In this document: piece after piece, positions 3,187 to 30,745 of the stretch
Layout: each line of letters begins with the position of its first letter
How positions within the stretch are numbered: the first letter of the stretch is position 1
Source of the DNA: Branchiostoma floridae
Lineage: Eukaryota > Chordata > Leptocardii > Amphioxiformes > Branchiostomatidae
Direction: 5' to 3'
DNA: 64,000 bases
Assembly: GCF_000003815.2 (NCBI RefSeq)
Contig: NC_049991.1
Coordinates: 5,987,372 to 6,051,371, forward strand
Program-made: the position numbers and the translations under genes
The notes under the pieces: generated by a model
What the model saw: only the letters and a program-made list of their open reading frames with translations
The model's database searches: none
What the model was told of the DNA's origin: nothing

Positions 3187-3194
3187 ACCTTTTG

Positions 3195-3309
3195 GGTAAA
3201 GGGATCATTTAAGTTGTCCCGAGCATGTAAATGAGTACTAAGTTGTCCCGAGAATATTAAAGAGATGCATGCAAATAACTATGAATGCATCAAGAAGACC
3301 AATAGAATC
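3195..3309 (+). repeat. Left terminal inverted repeat of foldback element
   Basis: About 115 bp matching 16054-16172 in reverse complement, with roughly three differences. It contains the motif TAAGTTGTCCCGAG twice in direct orientation, near 3209 and 3240, as does the right end. Confidence 0.88.
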
Positions 3310-5440
3310 CAGGAGAAACCAGGACAAACCAGGAGAATCTAAGAGAATACAGGAGAAACCAGGAGAATCCGGCAGAATACAGGAGAAACTAGGAGAAACC
3401 AGGAAAAACCCGGAGAATCTAGGAGAATACAGGAGAAACTAGGAGAAACCAGGAGAAACCAGGAGAATCTAGGAGAATCCAGGAGAATATAGGAGAAACC
3501 AGGAGAAACCCGGAGAAACTAGGAGAAACCTGGAGAATACAGGAGAAACTAGGAGAAACTAGGAGAAACCAGGAGAAACCCGGAGAATCGAGGAGAATCC
3601 AGGAAAAACTAGGAGAAACCAGGAGAAACGAGGAGAATCCAGGAGAAACCCGGAGAATCGAGGAGAATCCTGGAGAATACAGGAGAAACCTGGAGAATAC
3701 AGGAGAAACCTGGAGAATACAGCAGAAACTAGGAGAAACCAGGAGAAACCCGGAGAATCTAGGAGAATACAGGAGAAACTGGGAGAAACCAGGAGAAACC
3801 TGGAGAATCTAGGAGAATCAAGGAGAATACAGGAGAAACTAGGAGAAACCAGGAGAATCTGGGAGAATCCAGGAGAATACAGGAAAAACTAGGAGAAACT
3901 AGGAGAAACCAGGAGAAACCCGGAGAATCTAGGAGACTACAGGAAAAACTAGGAGAAACCAGGAGAAACGAGGAGAAACTAGGAGAAACCAGGAGAAACC
4001 CGGAGAATCTAGGAGAATACAGGAGAAACCCGGAGAAACCCGGAGAATCTAGGAGAATCCAGGAGAATACAGGAGAATCTAGGAGAATCTAGGAGAATAC
4101 AGGAAAAACTAGGAGAAACCAGGATAAACGAGGAGAATCTAGGAGAAAAAAGGAGAAACCAGGAGAAACCCGGAGAATCTAGGAGAATCCAGGAGAATAC
4201 AGGAGAAAATGGGAGAAACCAGGAGAAACCAGGAGAATCTTGGAGAATACAGGAGAAACCAGGAGAAACCTGGAGAATACAGGAGAAACTAGGAGAAACC
4301 AGGAGAAACCCGGAGAAGTTAGGAGAATCAAGGAGAATACAGGAAAAACTAGGAGAAACTAGGAGAAACCAGGAGAAACCCGTAGAATCTAGGAGAATAC
4401 AGGAGAATACAGGAAAAACTAGGAGAAACCAGGATAAACGAGGAGAATCTAGGAGAAAAAAGGAGAAACCAGGAGAAACCCGGAGAATCTAGGAGAATCC
4501 AGGAGAATACAGGAGAAACTAGGAGAAACCAGGAGAAACCCGGAGAATCTAGGAGAATACAGGAGAAACTGGGAGAAACCAGGAGAAACCAGGAGAATCT
4601 AGGAGAATCCAGGAGAATCCAGGAGAAACCAGGAGAAACCAGGAGAAGCCCGGAGAAACTAGGAGAAACCTGGAGAATCCAGGAGAATACAGGAGAAACA
4701 AGGAGAAACCCGGAGAAACGAGGAGAAACTAGGAGAATCCAGGAGAATACAGGAGAAACCTGGAGAATACAGGAGAAACCTGGAGAATACAGCAGAAACT
4801 AGGAGAAACCAGGAGAAACCCGGATAATCTAGGAGAATACAGGAGAAACTGGGAGAAACCAGGAGAAACCTGGAGAATCTAGGAGAATCAAGGAGAATAC
4901 AGGAGAAACTAGGAGAAACCAGGAGAATCTAGGAGAATACAGGAGAATACAGGAAAAACTAGGAGAAACTAGGAGAAACCAGGAGAAACCCGGAGAATCT
5001 AGGAGACTACAGGAAAAACTAGGAGAAACGAGGAGAAACGAGGAGAAACTAGGAGAAACCAGGAGAAACTAGGAGAATCTAGGAGAATCCAGGAGAAATC
5101 AGGAGAAATCAGGAGAAACCAGGAGAATCTAGGAGAATCTAGGAGAATCCAGGAGAATCCAGGAGAAACCCGGAGAATCTAGGAGAATCCAGGAGAAACC
5201 AGAAGAAACCAGGAGAACCCAGGAGAATACAGGAGAAACAGGGAGAATCTAGGAGAATCCAGGAGAAGCTAGGAGAAACCTGGAGAATCCTGGAGAATCT
5301 AGGAGAATCTAGGAGAAGCCAGGAGTATCTAGGAGAATCTCAGGAGAATACAGGAGAAACTAGGAGAATCCAGGAGAAACTAGGAGAAACCAGGAGAATC
5401 CAGGAGAATGCAGGAGAATCTAGGAGAAACCAGGAGAATC

Positions 5441-6030
5441 CATGAGAAACCAGGAGAATACATGAGAAACTTTGAGAAACTAGTAGAAACTAGGAGTAAC
5501 CAGGAGAAATCCGAAGAATCCAGGAGAATACAGTAGAAACTAGGAGAATCCAGGAGAAACTAGGAGAAACCTGGAGAATAGTGGAGAAACCAAGAGAATC
5601 TAGGGGAAACAAGGAGAATTAAGGAGAAACTAGGAGAATCCAAGAGAATCCAGGAAAATACAGGAAAAACCAGGAGAAAGTAGGAGAATCCAAGAGAAGC
5701 TATCAGAAACCAAGAGATTCAAGGAGAAACCAGGAGAAACAAGGAGGATCTAGGAGAATACAGGAGAATCTAGGAGGATACAACAGAAACTTGGATAGTC
5801 CAGGAGAATATCGCAGGAAGTTCGAGAATACAGGAGAAACGCAGGAGAAACCAGGAGAAAGCAGGAGAAACTTTGATTGTTCAGGATAATACAGGAGAAA
5901 ATAGGAGAATCTAGGAGAAACCAGGAGAAACCAAGAGAATCTAGGAGAAATAAGAGGAATACAGGAGAAACTAAGAGAAACAAGGAGAAACTAGCAGAAT
6001 ACTGGAGAACTGAAGAGAAGACAGGAGAAT
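5441..6030 (+). repeat. Direct duplication inside left array, copy 1
   Basis: This irregular block (CATGAGAAAC through GAAGAGAAGACAGGAG) recurs at 7259-7826 with the same rare variant units in the same order, offset by about 1.8 kb. Confidence 0.85.
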
Positions 6031-7258
6031 CCAGGAGAATCTAGGAGAATCCAGGAGAATCCAGGAGAATCTAGGAGAATCCAGGAGAATCCAGGAGAAT
6101 CTAGGAGAATCCAGGAGAATCCAGGAGAATCTAGGAGAAACCAGGAGAAACCCGGAGAATCTAGGAGAATCCAGGAGAATCCAGGAGAAACCCGGAGAAT
6201 CTAGGAGAATCCAGGAGAATACAGGAGAATCTAGGAGAAACAAGGAGAATCTAGGAGAATCCAGGAGAATCTAGGAGAATCCAGGAGAATACCCGGAGAA
6301 ACTAGGAGATAACCTGGAGAATGGAGGAGAATACTAGGAAAAACTAGGAGAAACCAGGAGAAACCCGGAGAAACGAGGAGAATCCAGGAGAAGAAACCCG
6401 GAGAATCGAGGAGAATCCAGGAGAATACAGGAGAAACCTGGAGAATACAGGAGAAACTAGGAGAAACCTGGAGAATACAGGAGAAACTAGGAGAAACCAG
6501 GAGAAACCCGGAGAATCTAGGAGAATACAGGAGAAACTGGGAGAAACCAGGAGAAACCAGGAGAAATCTAGGAGAATCCAGGAGAATNNNNNNNNNNNNN
6601 NNNNNNNNNNNNNNNNNNNNNNNNNNNNNNNNNNNNNNNNNNNNNNNNNNNNNNNNNNNNNNNNNNNNNNNNNNNNNNNNNNNNNNNNNNNNNNNNNNNN
6701 NNNNNNNNNNNNNNNNNNNCGGAGAATCCATGAGAAATCCGGAGAATCTAGGAGAATCCAGGAGAAACCAGGAGAAACTAGGAGAATCCAGGAGAATCCA
6801 GGAGAACCTAGGAGAATCTAGGAGAAGCTAGGAGAAACCCGGAGAATCTAGGAGAATCCAGGAGAAACCAGGAGAATACAGGAGAAACTAGGAGAATCCT
6901 GGAGAATCCAGAAGAATACAGGAGAATCTAGGAGAAACTAGGAAAAACCAGGAGAAACCCGGAGAATCTAGGAGAATCCAGGAGAATATACGAAAAAATA
7001 GGAGAAACTAGGAGAAACCAGGAGAAACCCGGAGAATCTAGGAGAATACAGGAGAATAAAGGAGAAACTAGGAGAATCCAGGAGAAACTAGGAGAAACCT
7101 GGAGAATCCCGGAAAAACTAGGAGAAACCAGGAGAAACCAGGAGAATCTAGGAGAATCCAGGAGAATACAGGAGAAACTAGGAGAATCCAGGAGAAACTA
7201 GGAGAAACCAGGAGAATCCAGGAGAATACAGGAGAAACTAGGAGAAACCAGGAGAATC

Positions 7259-7826
7259 CATGAGAAACCAGGAGAATACATGAGAAACTTTGAGAAACTA
7301 GTAGAAACTAGGAGTAACCAGGAGAAATCCGAAGAATCCAGGAGAATACAGTAGAAACTAGGAGAATCCAGGAGAAACTAGGAGAAACCTGGAGAATAGT
7401 GGAGAAACCAAGAGAATCTAGGGGAAACAAGGAGAATTAAGGAGAAACTAGGAGAAACCAAGAGAATCCAGGAAAATACAGGAAAAACCAGGAGAAAGTA
7501 GGAGAATCCAAGAGAAGCTATCAGAAACCAAGAGATTCAAGGAGAAACCAGGAGAAACAAGGAGGAACTAGGAGAATACAGGAGAATCTAGGAGGATACA
7601 ACAGAAACTTGGATAGTCCAGGAGAATATCGGAGGAAGTTCGAGAATACAGGAGAAACGCAGGAGAAACTTTGATTGTTCAGGATAATACAGGAGAAAAT
7701 AGGAGAATCTAGGAGAAACCAGGAGAAACCAAGAGAATCTAGGAGACATAAGGAGAATACAGGAGATACCAAGAGAAAACAGGAGAAACTAGCAGAATAC
7801 TGGAGAACTGAAGAGAAGACAGGAGA
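7259..7826 (+). repeat. Direct duplication inside left array, copy 2
   Basis: Second copy of the block at 5441-6030. It is slightly shorter, lacking a few 10-bp units, and is followed by a short (AATA)n tract near 7827. Confidence 0.85.
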
Positions 7827-8515
7827 AATAAATAAATAAATAAAGACAGGAGAAACCAGAGAATCTAGGAGAATCAGGAGAAAAAAGGAGAAACCCAGAG
7901 AATAGATGAGAAAATAGGAGACTACAGGAGAAACCAGGAGAATAGAGGAAAANNNNNNNNNNNNNNNNNNNNNNNNNNNNNNNNNNNNNNNNNNNNNNNN
8001 NNNNNNNNNNNNNNNNNNNNNNNNNNNNNNNNNNNNNNNNNNNNNNNNNNNNNNNNNNNNNNNNNNNNNNNNNNNNNNNNNNNNNNNNNNNNNNNNNNNN
8101 NNNNNNNNNNNNNNNNNNNNNNNNNNNNNNNNNNNNNNNNNNNNNNNNNNNNNNNNNNNNNNNNNNNNNNNNNNNNNNNNNNNNNNNNNNNNNNNNNNNN
8201 NNNNNAGAAACTAGGAGAAATCAAGAGAATCCAGGACACACCAGGAGAAACTATGATAATCCATGAGAAACTAGGAGTAACCAAGAGAAACCAGGAGAAA
8301 CCTAGAGAATAAAAGAGAAACCAAGAGAAACAAGGAGAAACTAGGAGAATACTGGAGAAACCAAGAGAATAGAGGAGAAACTTGGAGAATCCTGGAGAAT
8401 ACAAATGAAACTTGGAGAATACAGGAGACGCCAAGAAAATACAGGAAAATTTTGGAAACAATCCAGGAGAATACCGTATATATATATAGAAACTTGGAGA
8501 ATACAGGAGAATCTT

Positions 8516-9062
8516 AACCCTATGAGAAGGTATTAAAGTCTTATATCCGTTGCAGTGCGAGGGTAACAATATCAAAGTGCTTCATGTTTTGTATTCATGT
8601 CATAAAAATGAAATGTCAGTTAAAGATATGCTCCCTCAGGACTCCAGCGTGAGTAACTTCTTGACGCTCGAGTGCTCCCGTCTGGACATCCCGATATCGC
8701 CGTCCCGTTTAAACCAAGGAGGTTAATGTTTAAACAATACTGCTGTTATTGTTATTGATATGTTATTTAATGAAAATGAGTGTGTGGGGGAGGGTCATGG
8801 AAAATTTTTGAGGGAGGGCCATCGAAATATTTTTTGAGCCGGGATGGTCATTGAATTTTTTTTTACACCATCCCTCTCCCAGTAAAAATCGAACTGTCCC
8901 TAACCTTTGACCAAATTAATTTAGCTTAAAATATGTGTCAGACATCGCCCTATCTACACTCGGTATTATGAATGACCTGGGAGTACCGAGGGCCAAATGT
9001 TGGAAAATTACATACAATACTGATGCATACATATACATATACACCCAGCAAACACACACATA
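8516..9062. other. Foldback element interior, left part
   Basis: Non-repetitive sequence with no recognisable gene. It contains two related GA-rich phrases (GGGAGGGTCATGG and GGGAGGGCCATCG near 8788 and 8812). Confidence 0.5.
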
Positions 9063-9221
9063 GGACCCTGCTCTTACATACACACGCGACCCTGCGCTTA
9101 CACACACGCACGACCCTGCGCTTACACACACACACATGACCCTGCGCTTTCACACACACGGCCCTGCGCCTACACACACACACGGCCCTGGCTTACACGC
9201 ACACACACGGCCCTGCGCTTA
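9063..9221. repeat. CA-rich minisatellite, left half
   Basis: Tandem units of about 26-30 bp built on CACACACGACCCTGCGCTTA. The same repeat resumes at 10250, so the array was split by the element at 9222-10249. Confidence 0.9.
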
Positions 9222-10249
9222 TACCCCCTTTCCACTAGGACGGCGCTCTCACGGCGCTCTCTCTGCGACCTCAAATATGATAGAGCGCGGTGAGAGCGCG
9301 GTGGGATCGCCAAGGTCGCCATGGGAGCGCGCAGAGAGCGCGGTGGGAGCGCCATGGTCGCCATGGTCGCCATCACCTCCGCGACTGTTTTGAACCTGCT
9401 CAAAACAGTCGCCGTGAGAGCGCCGTGGACGGCGATCTAACGATGAGCGCAGAGAGAGCGCCAAGGGAGCGCGCAGTGAGCGCCGTGAGCGCCAAGAGAG
9501 CGCACGGCGAGCGCGGCGAGCGCAATAGGTCTCAACAGTGGTTTATGATACCAAATTAGCTAGGACGGCGCTCTCACCGCGCTCTCTCTGCGCTCTCAAC
9601 TGCAGTTTGAGAAGAAGTATATTTGAAACAGACAGAACCCGGAGAAATGTTTAATATGTACCGATGATTTACAATTAAACAAACTGAGAAGGAACTGAAC
9701 AAATTCGTTTTTTTGAATTTCAACATGATGACATCAGTTTTCTTGTTCTTCATTTGTACATTTATACTATTGAAGTCCTGTTTTCAATAAATCTAACTGT
9801 TTCAGTGTTGTATGATTTACACTAAAAGCGTGGCATGATAAAACAATTTATGGTGAACATGCTACATGACAGAAAAAGGACCAAGACAAACGTGTATATT
9901 TCGGGCTGAGTGACTGTACGGTGACCAAAATGGGATTTGTTTACAGCCTTGATTTTATTCTTTGAATGTTATGTAAGACGTAAAAGGGTGACTTTAAAGA
10001 TACCAAAATACACTATACACCAAAAGATTCGTTCTCTATCTCTGAAATTCATTGAACAATCTTTCAAACTTTTGTTAGCTCATAAAAAGCCTTGACTGAT
10101 GCTAAACTGAGTTTTTCGAGCGCGCTGGGGTCGCCCGAGCGATTCCACTAGAGCAGTTTTTCCGGCGTCGCGGCGCTCTCACGGCGCTCTGGCCAATTTT
10201 CCATCGCAGCGAGAGCGCAGTGAGAGCGCCGTCAAGTGGAAAGGGGGCC
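9222..10249. mobile_element. Harbinger-like MITE
   Basis: 1028 bp flanked by TTA at 9219-9221 and 10250-10252. The termini are inverted: CCCCCTTTCCACTAGGACGG at the left and its counterpart ending AAGTGGAAAGGGGGCC at the right. Three-base TWA/TTA target duplications and GG-CC-type ends are characteristic of the PIF/Harbinger superfamily. Subterminal GAGAGCGC motifs repeat heavily at both ends, and a second copy of the left end starts at about 9562. No transposase is encoded. Confidence 0.85.
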
Positions 10250-10390
10250 TTACATACACGCACACGACCCTGCGCTTACACCCACACACGGCAATGCGCA
10301 CACACACGCACGACCCTGCGTTTACGCACACACGACCCTGCGCTCACACACACACACACACACACACACGACCCTGCGCTTACACACGTC
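10250..10390. repeat. CA-rich minisatellite, right half
   Basis: Continuation of the CACACACGACCCTGCGCTTA array interrupted at 9222-10249. Confidence 0.9.
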
Positions 10391-11935
10391 TTACGATGCT
10401 CATGCACTGAAAGGGGAAATATTCTCACATACATTTACGGGAGTGACACACTGATTCATACGCTGTTGGGTTGTGATGTCTGACAAATGCTAGCATGGTC
10501 TATCTTCAAGAAACATAAATAAATTCGCGTGTTGCATGTAAAAACGACTTTCAAAGTGGGAACTGAAATCCCGGCCACCACGGGAATACGTGTCCCCTTC
10601 ACCCTGAAATCCATACAAAGGCCAAAACACTAAGCATTTTTTTATCTCGTTTTTTTTAATCTTGTTTTTGAAACATCTTACCAATAGCTATATCACCTAT
10701 CACCTATAGCTAGACATTTGACTCACTAACTCCCTAATGTGTTAGTCATTACAAAGAGCTCACGTCTACCGAAATAATAGACATTAACACCAGAACGACA
10801 ACAACAATAATACTATATTCAACACGTAAAGTTGTTTTTCAATGAAATGCACTCCCGTAGCAGTTTCGAACTCAAGCAAGAAACCATTTTTGTAGGAAAT
10901 GGAAGTAGGGTGACACAGAATTTTCGGTCTTCTCAGCCGAAAGTCATCAAGTCTTTCTATAGTGCGTTTCAAACATGTCTTCCAAATTGAAGACAAATCT
11001 CTTAACACAAATATGATTGTGCATGAGAGTTGCTGGAGGTGTTTTGTAATCTGAATGTACCGGGAGAAAGTCTTTACATCTGTTTGTTGATTCCCTCTGA
11101 AAGCTTTTCTCTTATTCTGGCTAGCGTTGTGATGCCTAGATCTCTGCTGTCATCTATATTATTTCCAGTGTGACACATGTTACACGAACGGAGGGAGATC
11201 ATTTACTGCTTGTCAACTCCACCTACAGCTACAGGCCGGCGGTGTTCTCAATTAACAACCCCCACACTGACGTGCGCCACCCATGTTGGTTTATGTTGTA
11301 TTTAGTTAGAATAACACCCCTATGTTATGNNNNNNNNNNNNNNNNNNNNNNNNNNNNNNNNNNNNNNNNNNNNNNNNNNNNNNNNNNNNNNNNNNNNNNN
11401 NNNNNNNNNNNNNNNNNNNNNNNNNNNNNCGCCATGTTGGAATAAAGCTCCTCAATATAGTTGCATCGTGTGCCCAAGAGTCGTCCCCTTATAGGACCCT
11501 TATAGCGATCCTTGTCCATACTGGCGGTGGGATAAAGAAAGACGTATCAATCAACAACATTCTGTTCTGACTTCTGTTTTCTGCGTCCGGATCGAGACTA
11601 AAAAAGCCAACAAAATGATTGCTAACATACGGTAAAATTTCACTAAGTAAGCTAAACCTTAAGCAACGGGTTCTACGTGCGGTTGTCCTGAGTACAATAA
11701 GTTCCTATATCCCAAACCTATCGTCCCTATCGGATCTTGACCTTTGGCGCTCGGTGGGGTTAACTACATCTGACCTGAGGTCAATCGGATTAGTTCAGAG
11801 ACAGACACAACCCTATCAGAGGCGTGTCTGACCGCGCCTCATGATTAGTGAACTATACCCGTGACGGGTGCTATACCTACCACCACGTCAAGCCCTACTG
11901 TATCAGGACCACCTGAAGCGGCAGCCGTTATCATA
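10391..11935. other. Foldback element interior, middle
   Basis: No gene recognised on either strand. Contains a 100-base N gap at 11330-11429. The open frames here are short and show no domain. Confidence 0.45.
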
Positions 11936-11994
11936 TGTATGAGTGTGTGTGTGCGTGCGTGTTTGTTTTTGTTTGTGTGTATGAGTGAGTGTGT

Positions 11995-12033
<39 letters not shown>

Positions 12034-12084
12034 TGTGTGTGGGTGGATGTATTTGTGTGCGTGTCCTGGGGGGGGGGGGGGAGG
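11936..12084. repeat. TG/GA microsatellite with G run
   Basis: Alternating TG tracts surround a (GA)n tract at 12000-12030, followed by a G tract at 12067-12081. Confidence 0.9.
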
Positions 12085-12092
12085 GGTTGGCA

Positions 12093-12456
12093 CAGGGTTG
12101 TAGCCAGCCTGAAATCATTTTCAGTCCCCTCGATTTTGAATGGGAATCCTATTGAGCACCGAAGGCATGGCATGGTGTTGCGCGTCATTTCTAGGGGGTC
12201 TGGGTCCCAGAAAATGTTGAAACCTAGACCCTCTGAAACACTATTTCCTGCATTTTGAGGTGCAAATTTTGCTTGTAGACTAAGCTGTTCAATGTCATCT
12301 GTTTTGGTGAGGAAGAACACATGGGTTTCAGTTTTTTTATATCTTTACATATCCATTTTTGTCTGTCCCAGGGGACGGAATGGGGAAAACTTTTTTCAGT
12401 CCCCAGCTGCAAAATTCCTTCAAAGGACTGAAGGACAGGTGCTGGCTACAACCCTG
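12093..12456. mobile_element. hAT-like MITE
   Basis: 364 bp. The ends are perfect 16-bp inverted repeats, CAGGGTTGTAGCCAGC and its complement. Perfect 8-bp direct repeats GGTTGGCA flank it at 12085-12092 and 12457-12464. An 8-bp target duplication with CAGGG-type termini is the hAT signature. There is no coding capacity. It is nested within the foldback element. Confidence 0.9.
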
Positions 12457-12464
12457 GGTTGGCA

Positions 12465-12837
12465 TGCCTGTGTGTATCTGTAAAGGAAAACGTGGTGTCT
12501 TCTGTCTTACCATTAAAATATTGATGATATATGCAAAAGAGAGAGGCATCCAAGTCTACAACGTCATTTTCGTCAATTTCAATACCCATATACATGCAGT
12601 TGATTGATAGTCACAAACACTGCAATGAAATAAATACATAACGTTATATAAAGCAGTTATCGTCAGGCTTATTTGTCTTGCTTTATAAGCCTTTATTTAG
12701 AAAAAAACGTAGTTATACTTATATCATTTGGAAACTGCATTTTTTTTGTTTATAACAATAAACTTAATGTGTGATATAAGCCCTTTTTTGGGGGCGACAT
12801 CTCTAGAGAGGGACGACCTACGTAGTATCTGATGTAT
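12465..12837. other. Foldback element interior, right part
   Basis: AT-rich sequence with no recognisable gene between the hAT-like MITE and the right minisatellite arm. Confidence 0.45.
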
Positions 12838-15800
12838 TCTCAAGGATTCTCCTGGTTTCTCTTGGTTTCTCCAGTATTCTCCTAGTTTCTCCTTGTTTCT
12901 CTTGGTTTCTCTTGTATTCTCCTGGTTTCTCTTGGATTCTCCTTGTTTCTCATTGTTTCTCTTGATTTTTACTATATTCTACTGGTTTCTCCTGGATTCT
13001 CCTTGTTTCTCCTGTTTTCTCCTAGATTATCAAAGTTTCTCCTGTATTCTCTTGGATTCTCCAGTATTCTCCTAGTTTCTCCTTGTTTCTATTGTCTTCT
13101 TCTGTATTCTCCTGTGTTTCTCCTGAGATTCTACTATATCTCCTGNNNNNNNNNNNNNNNNNNNNNNNNNNNNNNNNNNNNNNNNNNNNNNNNNNNNNNN
13201 NNNNNNNNNNNNNNNNNNNNNNNNNNNNNNNNNNNNNNNNNNNNNGATTTTCGGGTTTCTCCTGGTTTCTCCTAGTTTCTCCTAGTTTCTCCTAGTTTTT
13301 CCTGTATTCTCCTGTATTCTCCTAGATTCTCCGGGTTTCTCCGGGTTTCTCCTAGTTTCTCCTGTATTCTCCTGGATTCTCCAGGTTTCTCCTAGTTTCT
13401 CCGGGTTTCTCCTCGTTTCTCCTGGATTCTCCTGGATTCTCCTAGATTCTCCTGGTTTCTCCTAGTTTCTCCCAGTTTCTCCTGTATTCTCCTAGATTCT
13501 CCGGGTTTCTCCTGGTTTCTCCTAGTTTCTCCTAGTTTCTCCTGTATTCTCCTAGATTCTCCGGGTTTCTCCGGGTTTCTCCTAGTTTCTCCTGTATTCT
13601 CCTGGATTCTCCAGGTTTCTCCTAGTTTCTCCGGGTTTCTCTTGGTTTCTCCTGGATTCTCCTGGATTCTCCTAGATACTCCTGGTTTCTCCTAGTTTCT
13701 CCCAGTTTCTCCGAGATTCTCCTAGATTCTCCGGGTTTCTCCTGGTTTCTCCTAGTTTCTCCTGGATTCTCCAGGATTCTCCTAGATTCTCCAGGATTCT
13801 CCTCGTTTCTCCTGGATTCTCCTGGATTCTCCTAGATTCTCCGGGATTCTCCTGGATTCTCCTCGTTTCTCCTGGATTCTCCTAGGTTTTCCTGGATTCT
13901 CCTGGATTCTCCTAGATTCTCCGGGTTTCTCCTAGTTTCTCCGGGATTCTCCTAGATTCTCCTGGATTCTCCTGGATTCTCCAGGTTTCTCCTAGATTCT
14001 CCGGGATTCTCCTGGATTCTCCTAGATTCTCCTGGTTTCTCCGGGTTTCTCCTGGATTCTCCTAGATTCTCCTGGATTCTCCTGGATTCTCCTAGTTTCT
14101 CCTGGATTCTCCTAGATTCTCCGGGATTCTCCTGGATTCTCCTAGTTTCTCCTGGATTCTCCTGGATTCTCCTAGATTCTCCTGGATTCTCCTGGTTTCT
14201 CCTGGATTCTCCTGGATTCTCCTGGATTCTCCTGTATTCTCCTGGATTCTCCTAGATTCTCCGGGTTTCTCCTGGATTCTCCTCGTTTCTCCTGGTTTCT
14301 CCTAGTTTTTCCTGGATTCTCCAGAATTCTCTTAGATTCTCCGGGTTTCTCCTAGTTTCTCCGGGTTTCTCCTAGTTTCTCCTGTATTCTCCTGTATTCT
14401 CCAGGTTTCTCCTAGTTTCTCCGGGTTTCTCCTGGATTCTCCTGGATTCTCCTAGATTCTCCTGCTTTCTCCGGGTTTCTCTTAGTTTTTCCTGTATTCT
14501 CCTAGATTCTCCTGGTTTCTCCTAGTTTCTCCGGGTTTCTCCTCGTTTCTCCTGTATTCTCCTGTATTCTCCGGGTTTCTCCCGGTTTCTCCTATTTTTT
14601 CCTGGATTCTCCTGGATTCTCCGGGTTTCTCCGGGTTTCTCCGGGTTTCTCTTGGTTTCTCCTGGATTCTCCTGGATTCTCCTAGATTCTCCTGGTTTCT
14701 CCCAGTTTCTCCTGTATTCTCCTAGATTCTCCGGGTTTCTCCTGGTTTCTCCTAGTTTCTCCTGTATTCTCCTGGTTTCTCCTAGTTTCTCCGGGTTTCT
14801 CCTCGTTTATCCTGTATTCTCCTGGATTCTCCGGGTTTCTCCTGGATTCTCCTCGTTTCTCCTGGTTTCTCCTGGTTTCTCCTAGTTTCTCCTGGATTCT
14901 CCTGGATTCTCTTAGATTCTCCGGGTTTCTCCTAGTTTCTCCTGTATTCTCCTGGATTCTCCAGGATTCTCCTAGTTTCTCCTGGTTTCTCCTGGATTCT
15001 CCTAGATTCTCCTGCATTCTCCTGGATTCTCCTAGTTTCTCCTGTATTCTCCTAGATTCTCCTGGATTCTCCTGGATTCTCCTAGTTTCTCCTGGATTCT
15101 CCTGGATTCTCCTAGTTTCTCCTGGATTCTCCTGGATTCTCCTGGATTCTCCTGGATTCTCCTAGATTCTCCTGGATTCTCCTGGATTCTCCTAGATTCT
15201 CCTAGATTCTCCTAGTTTCTCCTGGATTCTCCTGGATTCTCCTGGATTCTCCTGGATTCTCCTGGATTCTCCTAGATTCTCCTGGATTCTCCTGGATTCT
15301 CCTGGATTCTCCTGGATTCTCCTGGATTCTCCTGGTTTCTCCTGGATTCTCCTGGATTCTCCTGGATTCTCCTGGATTCTCCTGTTTTCTCCTAGATTCT
15401 CCTGGATTCTCCTGGATTCTCCTAGATTCTCCGGGATTCTCCGGGATTCTCCTAGATTCTCCTGGATTCTTCTGGATTCTCCAGGTTTCTCCGGGATTCT
15501 CCGGGATTCTCCTGGATTCTCCTGGATTCTCCTAGATTCTCCTGGATTCTCCTAGATTCTCCCAGTTTCTCCTGGATTCTCCTAGATTCTCCGGGATTCT
15601 CCTAGATTCTCCGGGATTCTCCTAGGATCTCCTGGATTCTCCTAGATTCTCCGGGATTCTCCTAGATTCTCCTGAATTCTCCTGGATTCTCCTGGATTCT
15701 CCTAGATTCTCCTGGGATTCTCCTGGGATTCTCCCTAGTAGGGTACACAGCGAGTGCTCGTTTCTCCTGTATTCTCCTGGATTCTCCGGGTTTCTCCCGG

Positions 15801-16060
15801 TTTCTCCTATTTTTTCCTGGATTCTCCTGGATTCTCCTAGATTCTCCGGGTTTCTCCTGGTTTCTCCTAGTTTCTCCTGTATTCTCCTGGATTCTCCAGG
15901 TTTCTCCTAGTTTCTCCGGGTTTCTCCTGGATTCTCCTAGATTCTCCTGGTTTCTCCTGGTTTCTCCTAGTTTCTTCTGTATTCTCCTGTATTCCCCTAG
16001 ATTCTCCTGGTTTCTCCTGTATTCTCTTAGATTCTCCTGGTTTGTCCAGGTTTCTCCGGG
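12838..16060 (-). repeat. Right 10-bp minisatellite array
   Basis: Same 10-bp unit as 3307-8515 but in reverse complement (CCTGGATTCT register). It becomes very homogeneous between about 15050 and 15400. One non-repeat insert of about 25 bases (around 15736-15760) and a 100-base N gap (13146-13245) interrupt it. Confidence 0.97.
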
Positions 16061-16172
16061 ATTCTATTGGTCTTCTTGATGCATTCATGTTATTTGCATG
16101 CATCTCTTTAATATTCTCGGGACAACTTAGTAACATTTACATGCTCGGGACAACTTAAATGATCCCTTTACC
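16054..16172 (-). repeat. Right terminal inverted repeat of foldback element
   Basis: Reverse complement of 3195-3309 with about three differences. It is followed directly by the 8-bp repeat ACCTTTTG at 16173-16180. Confidence 0.88.
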
Positions 16173-16409
16173 ACCTTTTGACCTATATATCCCACACTCC
16201 TTCACGCAGACTATTCCAAAATTGTCGAGGGGTGTTTGAGTCTGTAAAGAGCTCTGATGTAAGCAACATGTAAAACGGTTCGGCGAATGTTGTACAATGT
16301 ATAACTGTAGATAATGATAATTACAACATAATGTTGAGTATCAACCCTGATACATTTCAGATTTACATTGCGAAACTAAATTTAACTGAAAAAGAAGAAA
16401 CAAAGATGA

Positions 16410-21977: not shown

Positions 21978-22233
21978 TTGATAGGCGGATCAAAGGGCTT
22001 GATAGTACGTGAAGGCCCGTTGAAGTCTCGTAGGCATACTGTAAAGTGGGAAATGTTTGTAGTAGGGAGAAAATGGTGTACAAATGATTTCGGGTAAGGT
22101 AGCAGAACACAGTTTTCGGCCTATAGTGATTTTTATAGTTAAGGGCCATAGGGTGACTATGCCGCATTAAAAATTACAGTAGGGTGCACTATAGGCGAAT
22201 GCTTATGGATGAGTTTAGGGTACATGCCACAAA

Positions 22234-23931
22234 ATATTCATTAAAGCATTTGATTCTGTTTGGAGAAACGGCCTCTTGTTTAAATTGAGTAAGCTCGGTA
22301 TTGGTGGTAAATTTCTAAAAGTAATAGAAGGCATGTATTCAAAGACTATAAACTGCGTTAAATCTAAAAATGGATTGACTGAAACTTTTGTTACTAATTG
22401 TGGTGTGAGACAAGGGTGTAATTTAAGCCCTACATTATTTAACCTTTTTCTTAGCGATATTGTGTCCCAATTTGACGGTGCTCCCTGTAATCCTCCATTT
22501 ATGTACAACAAAACTGTCCCTTGCTTGTTGTATGCTGACGACTTGGTAATTTTTTCCGAGTCCAAACAGGGATTACAGCATTCCTTGAACAATCTGGAAA
22601 ATTATTGTGCACTTTGGAAATTAAAAGTAAATCTTAGGAAAACAAAAATTATTGTATTTAAAAAGGGTGGCAGTCTACCTAAAAACTGTTCTCTCCTGTT
22701 TGATAATCGTGAAATAGAAATTGTAACTTGTTATACTTATCTCGGTATTATTGTGAGTGCAGCTGGCACGTTTAAAGCTAACAACAAATACCTGAGTGGC
22801 AAAGGTCTGAAGGCTTTATTCGGAATAAAACAATCTTTAGATAAAGCCACCGCCTCATTACCAGTTAGAAACAAACTTTTCGATGCATGTGTCAAACCTA
22901 TTCTACTTTATGGCTCAGAAATCTGGGGCGCATTAAAAAGCCCTAAAACCTGTCCCATTGAATCTGTTCACCTTAAATTCTGCAAACAAGCACTAAATAT
23001 CCCCAGACCAGCATCTAACCTTGCCACAAGAGCGGAATTAGGGAGGTACCCCATTCAACTGGAAGCCTCCCTGAACGCTATCAAACACTTTCTAAGAATC
23101 CGTCAAAACGTGCCAGCTGACAGTCTACAAGCCGACGCCCTATCTTGTCAATTACAACTAGATGCAAATGGAAACAACTGCTGGGCGTCCGGCGTTCGTA
23201 AGATACTGGAGGAATGCGGTTTTGCCTACATATGGAGATCTCAGATATCTCTAGGAACAAACCTATTACCTATAACCAACGCCATCAGCCAACGATTAAA
23301 GGATATTTATATTCAAACATTTAAAGCTGAAATACACAATGACAACCGGGACAAATCTTTCGGTAACAAATTACGAACCTATAGATTATTCAAGACTATT
23401 TATAAAGAAGAAGAATATCTGATGGTGAAAAACATACAACACAGAGTGGCTGTCACTAAACTCCGGATTAGTTGCCACAAGTTACATATCGAAACTGGAA
23501 GGCACAACCGCACCCCTCTGCAGCATAGAGTCTGCCAATTTTGTGATTTGCAACAAGTAGAAGATGAACAGCATTTTATTTTACACTGTAAACTGTACCA
23601 TAATGAACGGATTGTGCTTTATGAATATATAAGAAAAGAGTTCCCATATTTTGAACACCTTAATGCAACGGATAAATTTCTATTTTTGATGCGCCTAGAC
23701 AAACCCTGTATATCAAACATTATCTGTTCCTATATCTACACCTGTACAAAGAAGCGAGAAGATGTCGACCATCCTGTTAGCTTAGTACCTTCAGCTAGTT
23801 AATTGTATCTTGTAGTTTTTGCATATGTTTGTTATGTCTGTTATCAGTCATGTCTGTTATCAGTGACCTGTACCTAGCCCGTCGAGGCATGAATGTACAA
23901 TAAAGGTCTTTCATTCATTCATTCATTCATT
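22234..23931 (+). mobile_element. 5'-truncated L2/CR1-like LINE
   Basis: The open frame enters at KAFDSVWRNGLLFKL (from 22243) and runs to the stop at 23802. It shows GVRQGCNLSPTLFNLF and the catalytic YADDLVIF near residues 86-93 of the part starting at 22276. A C-terminal CQFC-x10-HFILHC zinc-binding-like block follows. Typical 3'-end features come next: AATAAA at 23899-23904 and an (ATTC)n tail to 23931. Endonuclease and N-terminal reverse transcriptase sequence are missing, so the copy is dead on arrival, although its remaining frame is intact and so probably young. The clade is tentative. Confidence 0.85.
22276..23802 (+). CDS. LINE reverse transcriptase, C-terminal part
   Basis: 508 codons without a stop. 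The palm motifs (GVRQGC and YADD) and a thumb region with CVKPILLYGSEIWG, a block common in animal non-LTR reverse transcriptases, are followed by the CX2C...HX4C module. The frame is already open 33 bases upstream of the first listed codon, so there is no genuine start: the region is the 3' part of a polyprotein frame cut by 5' truncation. Confidence 0.85.
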   Translation: MFKLSKLGIGGKFLKVIEGMYSKTINCVKSKNGLTETFVTNCGVRQGCNLSPTLFNLFLSDIVSQFDGAPCNPPFMYNKTVPCLLYADDLVIFSESKQGLQHSLNNLENYCALWKLKVNLRKTKIIVFKKGGSLPKNCSLLFDNREIEIVTCYTYLGIIVSAAGTFKANNKYLSGKGLKALFGIKQSLDKATASLPVRNKLFDACVKPILLYGSEIWGALKSPKTCPIESVHLKFCKQALNIPRPASNLATRAELGRYPIQLEASLNAIKHFLRIRQNVPADSLQADALSCQLQLDANGNNCWASGVRKILEECGFAYIWRSQISLGTNLLPITNAISQRLKDIYIQTFKAEIHNDNRDKSFGNKLRTYRLFKTIYKEEEYLMVKNIQHRVAVTKLRISCHKLHIETGRHNRTPLQHRVCQFCDLQQVEDEQHFILHCKLYHNERIVLYEYIRKEFPYFEHLNATDKFLFLMRLDKPCISNIICSYIYTCTKKREDVDHPVSLVPSAS

Positions 23932-27320: not shown

Positions 27321-30300
27321 ATGTTGAATGTAATAGACAAGGTAGTAGTTGTTTTCACCATCATTGTTTTTTGTGAAAGTTTAGAGCCGGCATGTTTTCC
27401 TGGGTGCAATAGTACAAAATCCTGGTCATCCTGTGTTCCCAAAAGAATACTATATCAAATGCAACGCCCCGACTCTCATGATGTTACCTGTATCTTATGT
27501 CCCTTACAGCCACATCCAGTACTAAACGTAAAGAACTCCTCCCAGGCAACCTCAACATGCCTTCCTAACAAGGGCCGTGTAGCCATTCGGGGTTTCTCCT
27601 TTGAGATACTGTCAGTACAGAAACTACGACTACAAAAGCGATCGTCCGTATATGACCTCGCTCTCATTCAATGCGGAATCACAGATATGGAACAGGGTAT
27701 TTTGGCAGAGTTTCCTCGATTACAGTATTTATACATTGACTTCAACAACTTGACCCACGTCAAGCAAACTTGGTTCGATGACGTTGGTCAAAATAGGCTC
27801 TCTAAGTTGTCTTTGGCACACAACAACATAAGTACTATGGATTCGAAGTGCTTCCAAAAGCTTGTCTCCCTGAGCACATTAATACTTGAGAGTAACTCTT
27901 TGCGAAGTATCAAGCCATCTTGGTTTTACAATCTAAAATCGTTGTACAGACTTTCTTTGGCATCAAATTCTATCGAAATCATCCCTCCACGTGCATTTCA
28001 GTCACTGACAATGCTGGGAAACCTAGATCTGAGTGAGAATTTATTGACATGCTTGTCAAGGGAAACTGTAAAGGGTCTGCACAGACTATACGCGCTGTCA
28101 CTGGGTGGGAATAGGTTACTTGCTCTCGATGATTCTGTTCATATGGCAATGAACTGGCAACTGCACTCTCGCCACAATCTTCATTTAGGTAATCGCATCG
28201 CAGTAATGGTAAACAAAGCGCTTTTCTGTATCACCGATTTGGGAGTTCCTCACAAGAGACAATTCTACCATGTCCAGCCGCAGCATAGCACGAACTCACA
28301 TGCTACTCAGCATGAACCAAGTATTCGATGTAATTCTATGAGACAGAATCTGCTAGGAACAAGGCAAATAAAGTACAACCTGCCACTGGTTATCATATCC
28401 ATCAACAAAAACCAGAGTGACATAGATGCTAAAAACACCACCCACTTGTGCAAACATGCTTGGGAAAATGCCTCCCTTGTAAAGGTAGCATTGCAGGGAG
28501 GTACAACTCTGCAGATTGTTTCCATGGATATAGACAGGTCCTGTAATCCCCAAATTTTTGCTATAATTCTATCAGATGCCATCCCAAATGAAAGCGAGGC
28601 CAAGCTTTATGCTGATAGACACAGTAATAATGCCACTGTTTTTGGTCATGAAGAAATGACGAATGTAACATGTTTGCTCAACACTTGGGAGGAGACCTAC
28701 CAACACGTCTTCACCACGCCCTTGTTCAGCACTCCTGATGGCACCGTGTGTGTAGAAAAGACACAGACCACAAGGACCGTGTCCAACACTCCTGATGGCA
28801 CCGTGTGTGTCTCAAAGACTACGACCACAAGGACCGTGTCCAGCACTCCTGATGGTACTACCGTGTTTACGAGAGAGGGGACGACTCTGACCACAAGAGA
28901 ACCTAAGATCAAGACAACAAAGTCAACTCTGAGTCAGACGAACCCCAGTACAAATGGATCTATGAAGGAGAGATTCCCACGTCGAGCGATCATCATAATG
29001 GTAGTTGTACTAGTGGTAGTACTGGTAGCACTGTTTGTGATGTATGTTATCAGAAGACAGTGCTGTTGTTCACGGGGCCACCTGGCAGGAGTCCATGGCA
29101 CTGCACTTGACGGTACTACACAGCAGTCTTCATCTTCATGTGATGATCCGCAGTACAGTGTGATTCCCGACGAGTACTACAATCAGCAAGGCACTGTGAC
29201 CACGACACAGACTGAGAATGATTACAGTCAGATTCCTGACGAGTACTACAACTACTACAACACAAGACCAGGGGCACAGCATCCTTACTGGGAGATCCCT
29301 GACGAGTACTACAACTACTACAACACAAGACCAGGGGCACAGCATCCTTACTGGGAGATACCAGATGAGTACTACAACCGCTACAGCACATACCCTACAA
29401 CACGTCGTGTGCCTCAAGACGACAAAGACTACTCTGTAAGATTCACGTCCGCTGCAGCTGATGTGGTCATTCCTTCCTCAACCAGGCTAGGTGCTAAACA
29501 TCCATCCTATGATACAGCCCCTCAAGTCTGGAGAGACCCACAGAATTACCAGATACCTACAAGTGGCCGTCAAACTAACATCAGATCACAGGCAAAGCCT
29601 GTAGCAGGCAGTGGTAGTGGCCAAAGATATATGGGTTTGGTAGGTAACTTCAAGTCTAACAGAAGACGCCTATCATACCCTCTAACACTCCAAGTGCCCC
29701 AAGAAGACTACTCTGTAAGATTCAACACCACTGAAGCTAAGGTGGCACTTCCTTCCCCAACCAGGCTAGGTGCTAAACATCCATCCTATGATACAGCCCC
29801 TCAAGTCTGGAGAGACCCACAGAATTACCAGATACCTGCACGTGGCCGTCAGACTAACATCAGAGCGCAGGAAATGCCTGTATCAGGCAGTAGTAGTGGA
29901 CAAAGATATATGGGTCTGAAAGGTAACTTCAGGTCTAACACAAGACGCCTATCATACCCTCTAACGTTCCATGTGTCTGATGGCAAGTACTACCCTGTAA
30001 GATTTAACTCCAATACAGCTGATGTGGTCCTTCCTTCGTCAACCAGGCTAGGTGCTAAACATCCATCCTACGATGCAGCCCCTCAAGTATGGAGAGACCC
30101 ACAGAACTACCAAATACCTGTACGTGGTCGTCAGACTAACATTAGAGCGCAGGAAATGCCTGTAGCAGGTAGTAGTAGTGGCCAAAGCTATATGGGTCTG
30201 AAAGGTAACTTCAGGTCTAACACAAGACGCCTATCATACCCTCTAACGTTCCATGTGTCTGATGGCAAGTACTACCCTGTAAGATTTAACTCCAATACAG

Positions 30301-30623
30301 CTGATGTGGTCCTTCCTTCGTCAACCAGGCTAGGTGCTAAACATCCATCCTACGATACAGCCCCTCAAGTCTGGAGAGACCCACAGAATTACCAAATACC
30401 TGTACGTGGTCGTCAGACTAACATAAGAGCACAGGGAATTCCTGTAGTAGGCAGTGGTAGTGGCCAAAGATATATGGGTTTGATGGGTAACTTCAAGTCA
30501 AACAGAAGACGCCTATCATACCCTCTAACACTCCAAGTGCCCCAAGAAAATAAGGACTACTCTTTAAGGTGGCCCTTCCTTCGTCAACCAGACTCGGTGG
30601 TAAACACCTATCCTACAATTTAA
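27321..30623 (+). CDS. Leucine-rich-repeat single-pass receptor with repetitive tyrosine-rich tail
   Basis: 1100 residues in one exon. Residues 1-20 form a hydrophobic signal peptide (VVVVFTIIVFC). A cysteine-containing region follows, then about six leucine-rich repeats at residues 111-270 (for example LSKLSLAHNNIS). A Thr-rich stalk carries TPDGTVCV-type repeats. A transmembrane helix lies near 555-577 (IIIMVVVLVVVLVALFVMYV), followed by basic and cysteine residues (RRQCCC). The cytoplasmic tail, about 520 residues, has four IPDEYYN motifs and four tandem 93-94-residue repeats (DNA period 279-282 bp), each with PSYD(T/A)APQVW, NYQIP and (R/S)YMGL. YYN fits the Y-x-N consensus bound by Grb2-type SH2 domains and YQIP fits Y-x-x-P; signalling is therefore inferred, not shown. 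The frame ends inside a fifth, damaged repeat. No family orthologue is recognised. Confidence 0.88.
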   Translation: MLNVIDKVVVVFTIIVFCESLEPACFPGCNSTKSWSSCVPKRILYQMQRPDSHDVTCILCPLQPHPVLNVKNSSQATSTCLPNKGRVAIRGFSFEILSVQKLRLQKRSSVYDLALIQCGITDMEQGILAEFPRLQYLYIDFNNLTHVKQTWFDDVGQNRLSKLSLAHNNISTMDSKCFQKLVSLSTLILESNSLRSIKPSWFYNLKSLYRLSLASNSIEIIPPRAFQSLTMLGNLDLSENLLTCLSRETVKGLHRLYALSLGGNRLLALDDSVHMAMNWQLHSRHNLHLGNRIAVMVNKALFCITDLGVPHKRQFYHVQPQHSTNSHATQHEPSIRCNSMRQNLLGTRQIKYNLPLVIISINKNQSDIDAKNTTHLCKHAWENASLVKVALQGGTTLQIVSMDIDRSCNPQIFAIILSDAIPNESEAKLYADRHSNNATVFGHEEMTNVTCLLNTWEETYQHVFTTPLFSTPDGTVCVEKTQTTRTVSNTPDGTVCVSKTTTTRTVSSTPDGTTVFTREGTTLTTREPKIKTTKSTLSQTNPSTNGSMKERFPRRAIIIMVVVLVVVLVALFVMYVIRRQCCCSRGHLAGVHGTALDGTTQQSSSSCDDPQYSVIPDEYYNQQGTVTTTQTENDYSQIPDEYYNYYNTRPGAQHPYWEIPDEYYNYYNTRPGAQHPYWEIPDEYYNRYSTYPTTRRVPQDDKDYSVRFTSAAADVVIPSSTRLGAKHPSYDTAPQVWRDPQNYQIPTSGRQTNIRSQAKPVAGSGSGQRYMGLVGNFKSNRRRLSYPLTLQVPQEDYSVRFNTTEAKVALPSPTRLGAKHPSYDTAPQVWRDPQNYQIPARGRQTNIRAQEMPVSGSSSGQRYMGLKGNFRSNTRRLSYPLTFHVSDGKYYPVRFNSNTADVVLPSSTRLGAKHPSYDAAPQVWRDPQNYQIPVRGRQTNIRAQEMPVAGSSSGQSYMGLKGNFRSNTRRLSYPLTFHVSDGKYYPVRFNSNTADVVLPSSTRLGAKHPSYDTAPQVWRDPQNYQIPVRGRQTNIRAQGIPVVGSGSGQRYMGLMGNFKSNRRRLSYPLTLQVPQENKDYSLRWPFLRQPDSVVNTYPTI

Positions 30624-30745
30624 CAGCCTCTCAAGTCTGGAGAGACCCACAGAATTACCAGATACCTGCACGTGGACGTCCAACTAACATCAGATCCCAT
30701 GGAATGCCTGTGGCAATAAGTAGTAGCTATAGTGGCCTTGAATGG
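30560..30745 (+). pseudogene. Decayed fifth tail repeat of the LRR receptor
   Basis: The fifth 282-bp repeat lacks 22 bases, bounded by TAAG in intact copies, and so shifts frame and terminates at 30621-30623. Recognisable repeat sequence (CAAGTCTGGAGAGACCCACA) continues beyond the stop to about 30745. Confidence 0.85.

Follow-up and report, generated by a model that had tools for sequence, protein, structure and literature searches.

We report that a block of about 13 kb in the lancelet Branchiostoma floridae is almost certainly a copy of a DNA transposon built as a foldback element, a member of a non-autonomous family that moves by cut and paste. The block lies in a 64,000-nucleotide stretch of contig NC_049991.1 (positions 5,987,372 to 6,051,371), hereafter the window, in whose positions coordinates are given unless a contig is named, and it spans 3195-16172 (13.0 kb of scaffold, N runs included). 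The element works like, and is built as, a foldback element: long inverted arms of short tandem units are present in all six large copies that we found in the genome, and together the copies constitute a foldback family that is new but of a kind already known. One odd locus has thereby become a defined family with mutually consistent insertion scars, in an animal that stands near the root of the vertebrates.

Boundaries and arms of the window copy

The left terminal inverted repeat of the window copy, labelled C13, begins GGTAAAGGGATCATTTAAG and occupies 3195-3309 on the plus strand, and its right counterpart occupies 16060-16172 on the minus strand. The two, each about 115 bp long, are 97.4% identical (3195-3309 versus 16172-16060). 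A target site duplication of 8 bp, ACCTTTTG, directly abuts the left terminus at 3187-3194 and the right terminus at 16173-16180, in both places on the plus strand. Elsewhere in the window, outside the element, a randomly chosen pair of 8-mers is identical at a rate of 4.8e-5, or about 1 in 21,000. Inside each terminus are two copies of a 14-bp direct repeat, TAAGTTGTCCCGAG, at 3210-3223 and 3239-3252 on the plus strand and at 16116-16129 and 16144-16157 on the minus strand; these repeats are candidate transposase-binding sites. A 21-base stretch of the terminus had no exact match among viral contigs.

Between the termini, two arrays of one 10-bp unit run in opposite orientations. The left arm (3304-7952, plus strand), in which AGGAGAAACC and AGGAGAATCC are the main units, is followed by a gap (7953-8205) and a degenerate inner end (8206-8530, plus strand) that is found also in C1b, another of the large copies. 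The right arm (13246-16065, minus strand) carries the same minisatellite in the opposite orientation and is separated by a gap (13146-13245) from its own degenerate inner end (12847-13145, minus strand). A repeat finder counted 463 units in the left array (3304-7942) and 280 in the opposed right one (13257-16065), and placed degenerate stretches at 8206-8450 and 12847-13144. Three of the four N runs inside the copy (6588-6719, 7953-8205, 11330-11429 and 13146-13245) fall in the arms, the first of them within the left array, and the arm figures of 5.2 kb and 3.2 kb are therefore scaffold lengths behind which the true lengths are hidden. Because the repeat period is 10, long open frames appear in every frame of the arrays; we rejected a coding reading after a protein search with one array frame gave three candidates, none of them at E <= 0.001.

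A previous sequence-only reading of the window had described the opposed arrays, the inverted termini of about 115 bp outside them and the identical octamers at both outer boundaries, and each of these descriptions is borne out. Its judgement that the 8-base match is far from chance also holds, but its figure of 1 in 65,000 does not and is replaced by the measured rate.

A genome-wide family with its own insertion scars

Using the terminus of the window copy as the query, we searched the genome assembly (513,431,437 bases in 431 contigs) and recovered 18 ends. Twelve of these form six convergent pairs and delimit six large elements: C13 (13.0 kb), C7 (16.5 kb), C1a, which is C1 at 6.8 Mb (14.6 kb), C158 (12.2 kb), C10 (24.3 kb) and C1b, which is C1 at 16.4 Mb (9.0 kb), all lengths including N runs. 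Opposed arrays run inward from both termini in every one of them. Five of the six are flanked by perfect and mutually different 8-bp duplications (ACCTTTTG, GAAAATCT, AAACATTG, CGCATTTG and CGTTTCAT), and in the sixth, C158, GTTTGACC stands on the right while the left keeps GTTTGA beside an altered, eroded tip. These pairs and duplications support the earlier proposal that the whole block inserted as one unit, and the multiple copies with different 8-bp flanking duplications are part of what the sequence-only reading had named as confirmation if the genome were probed with the 115-bp terminus. As in DNA transposons of the terminal inverted repeat order, inverted termini are present at both ends (in the six pairs and in a miniature), and the duplication is of constant length and differs by locus, erosion in the sixth large copy aside.

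The miniature, on C6, is 93 bp long and has TTCTAAGG on both sides as its own 8-bp duplication. Its size suggests that movement needs no more than about 80 bp from one terminus plus 14 bp from the other, unless the interior was lost after insertion. Five further ends stand alone: one on C19, one on C17, one on C10 at 5.9 Mb and two on C8. The C19 end belongs to a one-armed copy with an array and part of the core. A search for the 25-bp end with at most three mismatches returned the same 18 places, and its reversed-pattern control returned none. With one mismatch allowed, GGNAAAGGGATCATTT gave 77 matches, compared with 38 for a reversed control; 18 of the 77 are family ends, and the second end of the miniature appears among the matches as well. 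Seven of the other 59 were examined (six loci, 0.3-0.7 kb each) and showed no opposite end or duplication, nor did 5.6 kb at the match on C3 whose first bases come closest to a family end. A frame about 4 kb inward of the C3 match resembles a homeobox.

Two of the lone ends have features of their own. In the truncated copy at C19:554083-554168, one of the two TAAGTTGTCCCGAG repeats is gone together with the spacer, as expected of a deletion between direct repeats. The solitary 83-bp end at C17:11693221-11693303 stands directly before an open frame that resembles a BTB/kelch-type exon.

Arm polarity and the shared core

An alignment of arm ends, 13 of which align closely, revealed that the two arms of a copy differ in kind. 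At alignment column 117, one arm reads C and the other reads A in every one of the six large copies. Column 127 follows the same division where present (it is deleted in C1a_R), and column 109 agrees in 11 of the 12 arms. The exception is the left arm of the window copy, an A-type arm with this one diagnostic site unlike other A-type arms, which may be a recombinant; the right arm of the copy is T-type. Relative to the arm types, the core is oriented alike in C13, C10, C1b and the one-armed C19, and likewise in C7, which is reversed as a whole. The fixed polarity of arm types and core indicates that the pair of arms is transmitted together with the core and that the two arms have escaped homogenisation in their outermost parts.

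The core of the window copy (8531-12846, plus strand, including the gap 11330-11429) is non-coding and common to other copies. Its known sequence, two nested elements left out, amounts to about 2.8 kb and differs between copies by about 1-5% of substitutions, depending on the segment. From their general features we take the nested elements to be a PIF/Harbinger-like insertion of 1,028 bp (9222-10249) and a hAT-like miniature inverted-repeat transposable element (MITE) of 364 bp (12093-12456, CAGGG...CCCTG). The first has TTA at either side, and its site is cleanly empty in C1b and C7; the second has GGTTGGCA at either side and is absent from C7, where a G run blurs the exact empty site. An 881-base core query, for which 40 of 159 candidates were scored, matched at least 170 bases at 96% identity or more in C13, C7, C19, C1b and the unplaced contig C369. 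Two cores on C369 are among the scored matches, and one of them, with a 10-bp array upstream, may belong in the gap of another copy.

The core contains further repeats. A 22-24-bp AC-rich minisatellite (GACCCTGCGCTT) adjoins a 63-bp segment at 9052-9221 and 10255-10482, and the same combination recurs elsewhere in inverted pairs, one of them on C8 (3798921 / 3803011, 4 kb apart) and one on C13 (8631470 / 8643862, 12 kb apart). The sides of the C8 pair match at 91% over 452 bases, and we found no target duplication around it. These pairs are perhaps a second foldback-like family, one piece of which lies inside the core of the window copy. Core segments 11045-11155 and 10737-10810 recur at about 80% at more than 20 dispersed loci, where they are mutually inverted.

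Unit order is conserved at the arm edges

Comparing the order of minisatellite units across copies, we found that the first ten units from the terminus have an identity of 0.75 when arms of one type are compared across copies, and of 0.38 after shuffling, with values of 0.57 for the two arms of one copy and 0.56 for unlike arms of different copies. At units 80-100 the identity of same-type arms falls to 0.34 (0.33 shuffled), and the deeper bins give 0.42 (0.36 shuffled) and then 0.36 (0.32 shuffled). Unit order is thus common near the termini and mostly lost inward. This pattern fits a minisatellite whose edges are kept while its middle turns over, in support of the earlier suggestion that the arms change as minisatellites do. 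The copies amount to a natural experiment on minisatellite turnover, with the same array at six sites and ends of known common origin.

Alternative explanations

Several observations weigh against a transposon family. Assembly gaps interrupt all six large copies, C1a having no assembled core and C158 almost none, and the core has yielded no transposase gene, with no Pfam family over cut-off in the eight open frames tested. In the assembly, no place beyond the 18 known ends matches the 25-bp end at up to three mismatches, so that an autonomous partner would have to lie in gaps, be absent from the assembly or have diverged. No opposite end lies within the 3-4 kb examined at the lone ends on C17, C10 (5.9 Mb) and C8, and the two C8 ends have both flank and interior in common and hence represent one insertion that was duplicated. 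Past unit 100, identity between arms of one type rises a little above the shuffled level once more (0.42 against 0.36). No empty allele was encountered. Inside C7, a pair of contigs, both bounded by N runs, is in swapped order, each oriented as the polarity predicts: the piece matching window 8898-10836 sits at the place expected for the piece matching 11470-12846. A scaffolding error is the simplest reading of this order, a real rearrangement being the alternative.

The gaps and the swapped C7 contigs are also what can be said for misassembly, or two arrays of separate origin, as the source of the inverted arrangement, a view that we nevertheless consider very improbable. The outer layout is repeated six times, the polarity of the arms is fixed, and five perfect duplications bridge the gaps, which makes misassembly of the outer arrangement unlikely. 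The matching duplications are moreover independent of the gaps because each end is contiguous with its own flank. That the six copies arose as segmental duplications rather than by transposition has a negligible probability, since they differ both in their flanks and in their duplications, although the two C8 end fragments do have a flank in common. For the foldback transposon, we propose that a transposase supplied in trans would bind the termini, perhaps via the duplicated TAAGTTGTCCCGAG, and make 8-bp staggered cuts, moving the element by cut and paste. The arms would be passengers, expanding and contracting through slippage or unequal exchange, and insertion would favour promoter-near DNA.

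Relation to known foldback elements

Drosophila Foldback (FB/NOF) has inverted termini of short tandem units, variable arms and mostly non-autonomous members, and the same features are present here. Its duplications are 9 bp and some of its copies carry NOF, whereas the amphioxus family has 8-bp duplications, no linked gene and arms made of kilobases of a single 10-bp unit. We found no NOF-type transposase in eight frames of the assembled core, the interiors being gapped. The classification of the block as a foldback-class element in the sequence-only reading is accordingly upheld for the architecture but not for descent from Drosophila Foldback, given the 8-bp rather than 9-bp duplication and the absence of a linked transposase. 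The TU elements of sea urchins, a deuterostome foldback group compared here by description only, likewise have arms composed of short tandem units and likewise duplicate 8 bp, with a unit of 15 bp instead of 10 bp.

Other systems resemble the family in part; here and below, the cited papers are represented by the portions available to us. Tetris of Drosophila virilis has a flanking domain, tandem units, an inner domain and a non-coding middle, with 8-10 bp duplications, a unit number that varies between alleles and a shorter relative, DAIBAM, but its units are about 220 bp and its termini at most 1,735 bp, compared with 10 bp and several kilobases in amphioxus (PMC4079207). Tm1 of root-knot nematodes is similar in its composite, asymmetric ends, its varying number of ~14-bp motifs and its MITE-like members, and differs in its 9-bp duplications and in the putative transposase that some members encode (PMC3169594). 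Rehavkus, a DNA transposon reported from arthropods and annelids, has a minisatellite beside its terminus, but before the 3' terminus only, and has 9-bp duplications and a PHD-finger transposase (PMC6446971), whereas the amphioxus family has arrays at both ends and duplicates 8 bp. The long, internally repetitive termini of Galileo contain tandem units that vary independently at each end, but these are about 210 bp long, the duplications are 7 bp and the transposase is P-type (PMC3573991). The 'mirage' minisatellites of amphioxus are length-unstable tandem repeats, with Adh3 units from 10 bp, yet they are defined as duplications across exon-intron borders, and the available portions describe no termini or target duplications (PMC3087553, PMC3902484). 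Searches of one open-access library brought up no description of the family; a Repbase catalogue entry may exist.

Candidate transposases

The superfamily that mobilises the element may be Mutator/MULE, to which foldback elements such as Tm1 are assigned, a reading that we hold tentatively. MULEs are characterised by 8-11 bp duplications and long termini, a definition that the 8-bp duplications and 115-bp termini of the family fit (PMC6446971), and Tm1, titled a Mutator/Foldback family, combines composite termini, ~14-bp units and MITE-like copies, although its duplication is 9 bp (PMC3169594). The genome contains 27 MULE-domain matches over the Pfam cut-off. All of them are more than 100 kb away from each of the 18 family ends, though gaps could hide a nearer one, and the 12 examined with about 1.5 kb on each side contained nothing nearer to the terminus than 5 mismatches in 16. 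Several of the 27 are in long open frames, and the domain profile also matches in 3 of 14 prokaryote controls. In the available part of PMC6446971, earlier reports of MULEs in B. floridae could not be confirmed, and the 27 matches, as domains, bear on those reports.

Merlin is an unlikely source. Merlin elements have termini of 24-462 bp that open with 5'-GG and adjoin 8- or 9-bp duplications, so that the GGTAAAGGG ends, terminus length and duplication of the family all fit (PMC8101967), but GG is a weak signature. Three DDE_Tnp_IS1595 matches occur in the genome, none of them within 100 kb of the 18 family ends (again, gaps could hide one), and within about 1.5 kb of all three there was no close match to the terminus and no GG-ended inverted repeat flanked by matching 8-mers. 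Another or undescribed superfamily (KDZ/Zisupton, P-like or other) is a possibility that falls short of being probable. The MULE and Merlin searches revealed no partner, and KDZ and P transposases were not searched for. Direct evidence for such a superfamily is absent, and P ends begin with CA, which we counted against a P-like transposase. Zisupton likewise duplicates 8 bp (PMC12730594), and termini of foldback type are not confined to a single superfamily, as shown by Galileo, which belongs to P but is flanked by 7-bp duplications rather than 8 (PMC3573991). Whatever its class, the partner transposase may lie in a gap or in another haplotype, have diverged ends or be extinct.

Insertion sites and neighbouring genes

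The large copies were compared for their neighbourhoods. The left neighbour of the window copy is ADPRM on the minus strand, and the copy is situated about 1.2 kb before its ATG (protein matches of 94% in B. floridae, the best, 84% in B. belcheri and 75% in B. lanceolatum). C1b lies 11 bp before the ATG of a Gemin6 frame (Pfam 3.6e-8; two Gemin6 solved-structure sequences matched), and C7 lies 15 bp before the ATG of a 127-residue frame with no Pfam family, where YY1-like and NRF1-like sites adjoin. C1a is 89 bp before an open frame that has no Pfam match but resembles TMEM179, and has PRPF39 exons, reading away, on its other side. CRE-like and YY1-like sites adjoin C158, about 1.7 kb to the left of which is a zinc-finger frame directed away from it, and C10 lies 2.5 kb before an aldo-keto reductase frame.

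The YY1-like motif ARATGGCKG occurs within 35 bp in three of the six large copies, to which this count was confined (miniature and lone ends left out), against a background of 0.0014 per 70 bp that derives from one match in 49,942 bases for a motif chosen after the sites were seen. The looser ATGGCKG again marks three of the six, against a background of 0.0098. No CpG islands are evident, as the GC content of the 500 bp around the insertion sites is 0.40-0.47. We treat a promoter preference of insertions as a lead only. It is doubtful that the full picture holds of a chordate foldback family moved by an undescribed transposase and homing to core promoters, whose opposed kilobase minisatellite arms of fixed polarity plant unstable snap-back DNA directly in front of genes, among them Gemin6 and PRPF39. 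Copies near start codons, as at Gemin6, would be candidates for regulatory change, and the inverted arms candidates for recombination.

Other features of the window

Two long open frames lie to the right of the element. One of 1,111 codons, whose product resembles a leucine-rich-repeat membrane protein, contains most of a 282-bp tandem repeat (29425-30726). The other, of 527 codons (22219-23799), resembles a non-long terminal repeat (non-LTR) reverse transcriptase.

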